The notes beneath the pieces were generated by a model. It had not been told where the DNA came from. It saw only the letters and a list, made by a program, of their open reading frames with translations, and did no database searches. From positions 1 through 45,723 of the forward strand of contig JABJAN010000016.1 of NCBI GenBank assembly GCA_018666135.1: 45,723 nt of DNA, read 5' to 3'. Below, one piece after another: positions 42,428 through 45,492 of the stretch. Position numbers and translations under genes: made by a program. Origin of the DNA: Alphaproteobacteria bacterium (GTDB lineage: Bacteria; Pseudomonadota; Alphaproteobacteria; Puniceispirillales; Puniceispirillaceae). The number at the start of each line of letters is the position of its first letter. Position 1 is the first letter of the stretch.

Positions 42428-43933
42428 TCAAAAATTATCTGGAAGGTAGTCTGGTGATATAGGGTCTTGGAATTTTGTAAGGCGACTCTCAAAATGTACA
42501 GTGACTGTTCCTACTGGTCCGTGACGTTGCTTTGCAATTATAATTTCAGCAACACCAGCTGTTTTTTCTAATCTCTTTGTCCAATTATCATACCGCTCAT
42601 TAAACTTCTCTGTTGTTTCGGTATCTTTTTGTTCTGGCTCGCCTTTGGATAAATAATATTCCTCACGATACACAAACATGACCAAATCCGAATCCTGTTC
42701 AATAGAGCCAGATTCACGCAAATCAGCAAGATTGGGTCGTTTATCATCACGTTGTTCAACAGCCCGCGATAATTGTGACAATGCCAGAACTGGAATATCA
42801 AGCTCTTTTGCAAGTGCTTTTAGAGAACGCGTAATATTGGAAATTTCTTGGACTCGGTTTTCTGGTTTTAAGCCAATTTGCGCTTGCAAGAGCTGCAGAT
42901 AATCAACCACGATAAGACCAAGACCGGAAGTCCTTTTCATGCGCCTTGCACGGCTTGCAAGCTGACTTATGGATAGGGCTGGCGTGTCATCAATGAAAAA
43001 GGGCGCCATATTAATTTCACGATTAGCATCAACCAGTTTGTTAAATTCATCTGTTTTTAACTTGCCACGTCTAATCTTTTCAGAATCAAGTTCCGAGCGC
43101 TCAGATAAAATTCTAAGACCTAGCTGCTCAGCTGACATCTCGAGTGAGAAAAAGGCAACTGGTGCAGCTACCTCATCTGTTCGTGTGGTTGTTGCTGCAT
43201 GAAAAGCGATATTTGTTGCAAGCGCTGTCTTTCCCATTCCAGGGCGACCTGCAAGAATAATAAGATCTGATTTATGCATTCCGCCCATTAAGTTATTTAG
43301 ACCAGTAAGACCAGTGGATAAACCAGATAAATGACCATCAGAATTAGCTGCAATTTCGGCTTGTCGGATAGTTTCTGTTAACACCGAAACAAAAGGTCGA
43401 AGGCCTGTTTCAGCCATATCATTTTCAGCTAAATTAAATAAATATTGCTCTGCTGCTTCGATTTGGCGAAATGCAGAATTATCAATATCTGGCTGGCTAG
43501 CATCCTTAATAACCGTGTCAGAAATACGAATAAGCTCTCGTCTTAAATAGTTATTATGGATTAGCTGTGCATAATCAGGCGCATCAGAAATCGAAATGAC
43601 GCCATCGATTAAATCACCTAGATAAGAATCAACATCTTCTTCAATTACAAATGTATCAGTGCTAAACATCGCTTTCAGCGTTACATGATTAGCAACCTGA
43701 CCTCGCATAATTAATTTTGAGGCTGCTGCAAATATTTTTCCATGTAAGGTATCAAAAAAATGCTCAGGTCGAAGTAAATCATTTGTCTTATCAAACACCT
43801 GATTATCATAAAGTAAGGCACCAAGATAGTTTTGCTCTGCCACTATATTATTAGGAAGTTCCCGAATAGCACCAGCACTGCCATCTGCTCTTGGAAATAA
43901 CGCCACATTTTTTTCAGAAGAATTATCGCTCAT
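42428..43933 (-). CDS. dnaB: replicative DNA helicase DnaB
   Basis: A 501-residue hexameric helicase that unwinds the fork. The N-terminal primase-interacting domain spans 25-130 (AEQNYLGALLYDN, RPEHFFDTLHGKIF). The RecA-like domain has Walker A GRPGMGKT at 229-236, PVAFFSLEMSAEQL, the DYLQLL Walker B and LALSQLSRAVEQRDDKRP. No intein or insertion is present. Its promoter region contains two abutting DnaA boxes and an 18-bp palindrome. It is separated from rplI by an intrinsic terminator, so it begins a new transcription unit. Confidence 0.97.
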   Translation of the reverse strand: MSDNSSEKNVALFPRADGSAGAIRELPNNIVAEQNYLGALLYDNQVFDKTNDLLRPEHFFDTLHGKIFAAASKLIMRGQVANHVTLKAMFSTDTFVIEEDVDSYLGDLIDGVISISDAPDYAQLIHNNYLRRELIRISDTVIKDASQPDIDNSAFRQIEAAEQYLFNLAENDMAETGLRPFVSVLTETIRQAEIAANSDGHLSGLSTGLTGLNNLMGGMHKSDLIILAGRPGMGKTALATNIAFHAATTTRTDEVAAPVAFFSLEMSAEQLGLRILSERSELDSEKIRRGKLKTDEFNKLVDANREINMAPFFIDDTPALSISQLASRARRMKRTSGLGLIVVDYLQLLQAQIGLKPENRVQEISNITRSLKALAKELDIPVLALSQLSRAVEQRDDKRPNLADLRESGSIEQDSDLVMFVYREEYYLSKGEPEQKDTETTEKFNERYDNWTKRLEKTAGVAEIIIAKQRHGPVGTVTVHFESRLTKFQDPISPDYLPDNF

Positions 43934-43970: not shown

Positions 43971-43988
43971 TGTGAATAATGTGGATAA
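43971..43988 (-). promoter_or_regulatory. two directly abutting DnaA boxes upstream of dnaB
   Basis: On the minus strand the sequence reads TTATCCACA immediately followed by TTATTCACA, both exact matches to the TTATNCACA DnaA box, in the same orientation with no spacer. They lie 38-55 bases upstream of the dnaB start and would overlap or flank a -35 element, so DnaA could activate or repress dnaB. Confidence 0.75.
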
Positions 43989-44000
43989 CTAGAATAAGTC

Positions 44001-44029
44001 AAAAAAAACCAGCCTATAATAAGGCTGGC
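44001..44029 (-). terminator. rho-independent terminator after rplI
   Basis: On the minus strand CCAGCCT and AGGCTGG flank a six-base loop and are followed by eight T's. It lies about 60 bases after the rplI stop and just before the dnaB promoter region, isolating the ribosomal operon from dnaB. Confidence 0.9.
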
Positions 44030-44718: not shown

Positions 44719-44973
44719 TTAAACAGATGCGTAAGGCATTAAAGCTAAAAAGCGTGCCCGTTTAATGGCGGTTGATAATGCACGTTGTTTTTTGGCAGAA
44801 ACAGCGGAGATTCGTGAGGGTACAATTTTACCACGTTCAGATGTGAATCTTGTAAGAAGTTTTACATCCTTATAATCTATTTTTGGCGAATTTGGACCTG
44901 AGAACGGACAAGATTTACGTCGTCTATTTTGCGGGCGGCGTACAGCTTCTCTTGTGATTTCTAATTGTGTCAT
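44719..44973 (-). CDS. rpsR: 30S ribosomal protein S18
   Basis: An 84-residue S18, which pairs with S6 on the 30S platform. [64 protein letters not shown] is unmistakable. I use the ATG at 44973, seven bases after AGGAG; an upstream TTG in frame is less likely. It starts two bases after the rpsF stop. Confidence 0.97.
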
Positions 44974-44975
44974 AA

Positions 44976-45395
44976 TCAAGCTCCTGTTTCTGCTGTCGCA
45001 TCATGCGATTCTGAGTTGTGAGGTGTATCACGGCGCTCGCCTCTGTCAGAGCGTGGGCGCTCAGAGCGTTCTGGCTTTACCTGCATCATTATAGAAGGAC
45101 CTTCTTCTACTTCTTCGATTGATATTGTCATAAAACGAAGAATATCTTCGTTTAATCCCATGATACGTTCGAATTCATTAAGTGTTGTAGGTTCTGTTTC
45201 GATATTAAGAAGAATATAATGTCCTTTGCGGTTCTTTTTGATGCGATATGCAAGAGAGCGAAGTCCCCAATATTCACGCTTTTTAATAGAACCACCATCA
45301 TTTTCAATGATAGCGCAAAATTCATTCACTAATTCTTCGACATGTGTCTGTGACACATCTTGGCGCGCGATAATCACGCATTCATATAGCCTCAT
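44976..45395 (-). CDS. rpsF: 30S ribosomal protein S6
   Basis: A 139-residue S6. [15 protein letters not shown] is the family N-terminus, with [19 protein letters not shown] in the middle. The last 35 residues are a charged Arg/Glu/Asp-rich tail ending in [10 protein letters not shown], longer than in E. coli. The start at 45395 follows GAGGAG by six bases; an in-frame ATG 45 bases upstream would add unrelated residues. It is the first gene of the operon and is preceded by a structured leader. Confidence 0.96.
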
Positions 45396-45417
45396 AATGC
45401 TCTCCTCATGGCTAATC

Positions 45418-45492
45418 GTCTCCCAGTTAAGGGAAAACAAGCCAGCACCGCTGCTGGCAAGGGAGTCTGATTCTATGTGGATTTACACATAG
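45418..45492 (-). promoter_or_regulatory. structured rpsF leader with two hairpins (candidate S6/S18 operator)
   Basis: On the minus strand, a perfect stem CTATGTG/CACATAG (45473-45492) is followed by an outer CTCCC/GGGAG pairing (45461-45465 with 45420-45424) enclosing a perfect seven-base-pair hairpin GCCAGCA-GCGG-TGCTGGC (45441-45458). It ends about 25 bases before the start codon. S6:S18 is known to repress its own operon by binding leader RNA in many bacteria; I do not see a definite copy of that consensus. Confidence 0.5.

Follow-up and report, generated by a model that had tools for sequence, protein, structure and literature searches.

Why should two binding sites for the replication initiator DnaA stand end to end directly before the replicative helicase gene? 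The question is raised by the window, by which we mean the whole 45,723-nt stretch of alphaproteobacterial DNA analysed here, whose minus strand reads TTATCCACATTATTCACA at 43988-43971, that is, the co-oriented DnaA boxes TTATCCACA and TTATTCACA joined with a 0-bp spacer. An earlier note on this DNA had reported this abutting pair and its place 38-55 bp 5' of the dnaB start codon (ATG at 43933), and both the sequence and the coordinates are exact. It had also described dnaB (42428-43933, minus strand, 501 aa) as the partner of the helicase loader, which is mistaken, as the gene encodes the replicative helicase itself; its product is 84-91% identical to DnaB of the same genus and 61-70% identical to that of the rest of the window's family (f1). 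The upstream neighbour is rplI (ribosomal protein L9, 44087-44704, minus strand), named from its sequence and the gene order, with rpsR (44719-44979) and rpsF (about 44976-45440) lying further upstream. A terminator scan and RNA folding place a predicted intrinsic (rho-independent) terminator of this rpsF-rpsR-rplI operon at 44001-44029 on the minus strand, with a stem-loop (44029-44008; -14.3 kcal/mol, z -4.2) followed by a T-run just upstream of the boxes, which agrees with the earlier description of a region isolated by a terminator.

Single matches to the box pattern TTATNCACA occur in the window at about the level expected by chance (4 vs 2.8), as had been supposed, and genome-wide they are not enriched either (97 vs 85 for a reversed control pattern), and for this reason we did not take single boxes as evidence. 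The perfect abutting pair, on the other hand, occurs only once in the 1.77-Mb SAR116-type genome, where 0.0027 copies are expected from the box density, so the claim that an adjacent pair exceeds chance holds. Both boxes of the pair are real, but the pair is not the conserved element; it makes up units 2 and 3 of an array of three tandem 9-mers at 43997-43971 (minus strand), reading TTATTCTAG, TTATCCACA and TTATTCACA without spacers. Unit 1 (43989-43997) is degenerate here, with four mismatches to TTATCCACA, but it is of the TTATCCCCA type in relatives, and its 9-bp register and its distance from the ATG match those of the relatives' first unit (the array starts at -64 in the window and at -62 to -65 in most relatives). 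Unit 2 (43980-43988) is a perfect box in a conserved register, and unit 3 (43971-43979) matches TTATNCACA exactly and differs from TTATCCACA at one position, so that units 2 and 3 form a cluster of DnaA boxes in the sense of 9-mers that differ from TTATCCACA at about two positions at most. When both strands of the 45.7-kb window were scanned with a position matrix whose training set excluded the window's genus, the array was the best of approximately 91,000 positions, scoring 17.7 bits against 3.8 for the next.

Searches with DnaB assign the host genome to the SAR116 group of marine Alphaproteobacteria, and we compared the dnaB upstream regions of close relatives, of most genera of the order, and of about 75 further members of the class (mostly one genome per family). 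Such a comparison had been proposed for the two boxes and their spacing, and it turned out differently for the pair and for the array. The exact perfect pair is found in two of 151 genomes, with the second copy at an unrelated gene, and was therefore rejected as the conserved unit, whereas conservation of the array at dnaB spans the order and, in part, the class. The second copy (L058 2006-2023; G072:C6:53405-53422) sits some 39 bp ahead of an HxsD-like ORF that adjoins a radical-SAM gene, and it probably arose there by chance.

Within the order, the dnaB promoters of family f1 and of a second family (f2) share the array with the consensus TTATCCCCA, TTATCCCCA and NNNTTMACA. Sister species in the window's genus carry TTATCCCTG, TTATCCTCG and then either TTATCCACA or TTTTCCACA; the strong unit shifts and the register stays constant. 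More generally, strong and weak units swap places between species, perfect TTATCCACA units are found at varying positions of the array (L028, L035, L037, L038 and L074), and almost every relative has a unit 1 or a unit 2 with 0-2 mismatches. The final ACA of unit 3 is invariant in 49 aligned arrays, although the alignment procedure favours such matches. In a test of periods from 6 to 21 bp across 43 f1 promoters, the best pair of units was obtained at 9 bp, with a mean mismatch of 3.4 compared to 7.9 in shuffled sequences and 5.1-7.5 at all other periods, and the 9-bp period is also preferred in f2 and, more weakly, in family f3. A spacer scan with a fixed core pattern found a 0-bp spacer in 34 of 44 f1 and f2 promoters and each other length in at most three (shuffles, 0.04). 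The shuffles in these comparisons are approximate dinucleotide shuffles, and genomes within one genus are not independent. A held-out genome that had been kept outside the training set (G070) carries TTATCCCCG followed directly by TTATCCACA between rplI and dnaB. By both the period and the spacer tests, the array is wholly absent from the AT-rich family f4 (L084-L096, L110-L112, and L115-L119), which belongs to the same order, and any control based on the array must therefore be dispensable.

Beyond the order, 15 of 75 genomes have a 0-bp pair upstream of dnaB, compared to at most two for any other gap and 0.05 in shuffles, even though these families are far apart and their intergenic DNA is otherwise unlike that of the window. 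In these genomes, an inverted TGTGGATAA box often comes after the zero-spacer pair, as in TCCCCGNNNTTCACAGGCTGTGGATAA (L162, L172, L182, L183, L207, and L208), and together they would make up a predicted mixed cluster of direct and inverted DnaA boxes at dnaB. Several Roseomonas-type genomes (L015 and L017-L022) instead have TTATCCACAGTGATCCACAG-like pairs upstream of dnaB with a 10-bp rather than a 9-bp period. The array is also nearly specific to dnaB in the genomes compared. The pattern TCCCCRNNNTTCACA has 70 matches in 144 genomes of the class, and 10 of them fall on the dnaB strand no more than 250 bp upstream of that gene, where 0.003 would be expected. When the f1 and f2 genomes in which dnaB was found are scanned with the array model, nearly all have their top match at dnaB, although dnaB sites match this model by construction. 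The secondary matches are weak and scattered, and the sole near rival, itself weak, falls inside an unrelated region of G061. Those that we followed up as candidates (L151 and L153-L156) were set aside, as they lie mostly within unrelated genes and look like noise.

The array also has a regular relationship to the promoter. Upstream of dnaB, an extended -10 element (TTGCTANNNT) mostly ends 5-7 nt before the ATG, and in nearly all cases 4-9 nt before it, and because the hexamer ends so near the start codon, the dnaB mRNA is probably leaderless. Counted from the end of unit 3, the -10 comes after 24-25 bp in 27 of the 47 promoters and after 45-46 bp in six, and the step of about 21 bp between the two classes corresponds to two helical turns; three f2 members, at 50-51 bp, are about half a turn out of phase, and several arrays (L040, L042, L043, L045, and L080) lack a clear -10 where one is expected. 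The box cluster thus keeps a conserved place relative to the -10, as would be looked for in a promoter regulated by DnaA. If transcription starts at or next to the ATG, the centre of unit 3 falls at about -41, or at about -62 in the species with longer spacing, as is usual for class II and class I activators, respectively. For the window, we infer that TATATT (43945-43940, minus strand) is the -10, as 25 bp separate it from unit 3 and 6 nt from the ATG, and it can be read against the relatives' spacing of 24-25 bp; the automatic fit picked TTTTAT, 3 bp further upstream and 22 bp from unit 3. A sigma-70 promoter scan of the coding strand at dnaB gave nothing above chance, and a conserved -35 element was not detected, with TTGACA matched at 2.70 of 6 positions compared to 2.47 in shuffled sequence. 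The f2 genomes (L074, L076-L079, and L152) differ in the order of these elements. Their operon terminator lies between the array and the -10 of dnaB, with the array between rplI and the terminator, and the f2 array should therefore be transcribed by the upstream operon, unlike that of f1. The array is kept in f2 despite this intervening terminator.

Taken as a whole, the comparison leads us to favour, with reasonable though far from complete confidence, the view that the array serves DnaA as an operator within the dnaB promoter and that it activates dnaB. In this model, DnaA protomers would bind the array head to tail, with TTATCCACA-like 9-mers as the strong units and TTATCCCCA or NNNTTMACA as the weak ones. 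As no -35 element is conserved, we propose that DnaA would recruit RNA polymerase to the extended -10, such that a leaderless dnaB mRNA would be switched on when active DnaA is abundant, and helicase supply may thereby be coupled to initiation. What can be seen directly in the genomes is the array with its conservation, zero spacing, near-specificity to dnaB, and phase to the -10; the binding of DnaA, its activating effect, and the timing are predictions of the model. The DnaA of the host genome keeps the motif GGRDHTT, which we take to be the box-recognition motif of the protein, and the probable origin of replication carries TTATCCACA boxes, both of which indicate that the box code is the standard one. 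The code of the units also fits DnaA, as perfect TTATCCACA units recur, the weak units contain TCCCCA, and inverted TGTGGATAA boxes are found outside the order. TCCCCA is the W-box of Caulobacter, which is weakly bound by DnaA (PMC4285127).

The main competitor to activation is repression of dnaB by DnaA on the array, for instance through a block to polymerase at the -35 region at high levels of active DnaA. The upstream position of the array can also accommodate repression, DnaA is capable of acting as an activator or a repressor (PMC8203912), and in the short-spacing class the end of unit 3, 24-25 bp before the -10, abuts the -35 region. However, nine species have the array 45-51 bp upstream of the -10 and so outside the core promoter, a position that fits an activator better, and there is no conserved -35 left to block. 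Experimental work on other bacteria points the same way: the direct targets tested so far in Caulobacter (hdaA, gcrA, ftsZ, and mipZ) are activated by DnaA (PMC3193534), and a DnaA mutant of M. tuberculosis with reduced binding to the dnaB promoter under-expresses dnaB (PMC7738170). We therefore regard repression as unlikely, although it deserves to be kept in mind.

Other readings would separate the array from the promoter or from DnaA. Many species have only NNNTTMACA as unit 3, and by the measure of E. coli the majority of units are weak, which would suit another regulator with a motif resembling the DnaA box, but this is hard to reconcile with the perfect TTATCCACA units that recur at varying positions, with the inverted TGTGGATAA box that often joins the pair outside the order, and with the DnaA binding known at dnaB elsewhere; a neutral relic is excluded by the conservation of the 9-bp period across families, and we would give little credence to either form of this idea. 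The earlier note had offered titration of DnaA as an alternative to control of the helicase supply, and of the two, promoter control is favoured by the conservation, the phase to the -10, and the near-specificity. A site that titrates DnaA or sets its nucleotide state (similar to datA or DARS) and merely happens to lie beside dnaB would be in keeping with the compact clustering of the boxes. Yet such a site does not need the same position at dnaB in different species or a fixed phase to the promoter, and the array has just three units, accompanies dnaB in each family in which it was found, and mostly keeps two fixed distances to the -10 that are two helical turns apart, leaving this explanation very improbable. 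Still less probable is a roadblock, in which DnaA on the array would stop read-through from rpsF-rpsR-rplI into dnaB. The f1 array does lie directly 3' of the operon terminator, and that of f2 between rplI and the terminator, but an efficient terminator is already there, and a roadblock would not account for the helical phasing to the -10.

The activating operator that we favour has precedents in part. Control of dnaB by DnaA is already known from Caulobacter and mycobacteria. In Caulobacter crescentus, likewise an alphaproteobacterium, the DnaA regulon includes the dnaB and dnaQ promoters, with DnaA-dependent transcription and predicted boxes upstream of dnaB (Hottes et al. 2005, via PMC8203912), although the review through which we make this comparison gives no box sequences or spacing. 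Among mycobacteria, DnaA binds upstream of dnaB in vitro in M. tuberculosis and in vivo in M. smegmatis (PMC7738170), but these belong to a different phylum from the SAR116-type genome. The double DnaA boxes of E. coli are co-operative close pairs at promoters of replication and nucleotide genes, and the examples given do not include a dnaB site (PMC11317965). They are spaced by 2-3 bp (an 11-12 bp period), a distance that E. coli DnaA favours and whose alteration disrupts binding (PMC11317965), and this counts against the operator reading of an array with a period of exactly 9 bp; gaps of 2 or 3 bp occur in at most two of 44 promoters in the order and in none of the 75 others. The W-boxes of Caulobacter, contained in the weak TTATCCCCA units here, are said to require co-operative binding with stronger sites (PMC4285127, PMC4468827), but together with the G-boxes they are located in oriC, with a strong TGATCCACA form, and not in a transcription promoter. 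We found no description of a spacer-free, three-unit, promoter-phased array in the searchable literature, outside of which most subscription papers lie, making an earlier account possible; the conserved spacer-free and promoter-phased architecture therefore appears to be the new element.

It is conceivable, though we would sooner doubt it than assert it, that the zero-spacer array represents a distinct and ancient mode of DnaA transcription control in alphaproteobacteria, used there in place of origin opening, in which protomers would stack at 9-bp intervals not foreseen by spacing rules of the E. coli type and helicase supply would be tied to active DnaA throughout the class. If the activating-operator reading is right, the initiator would directly set the supply of the helicase that it must load, both in streamlined and mostly uncultured ocean bacteria and in Caulobacter, and the link between initiator and helicase would be an old alphaproteobacterial trait. 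The array also provides a sharp motif with which candidate dnaB promoters under DnaA control could be spotted in lineages that are unsequenced or uncultured.

We also considered the dnaB locus as the origin of replication itself but rejected it, as the site lacks a hemE/dnaA neighbourhood with AT-rich context and a probable oriC was found at hemE. Near dnaA, where an array was also sought, there is no well-matching box (L120). The probable origin of the host, beside hemE (L057 3060-3330; G000:C102:9060-9330), has four perfect DnaA boxes at G000:C102:9083-9305. None of its boxes abut; two recur at a 22-bp period, and TTTTCCACA and TTATCCACA are 3 bp apart. Because the same genome has this 3-bp spaced pair at its probable origin, the conserved 0-bp spacing at dnaB is a clean case in which to test the packing of DnaA protomers on DNA when the protein acts as a transcription factor.
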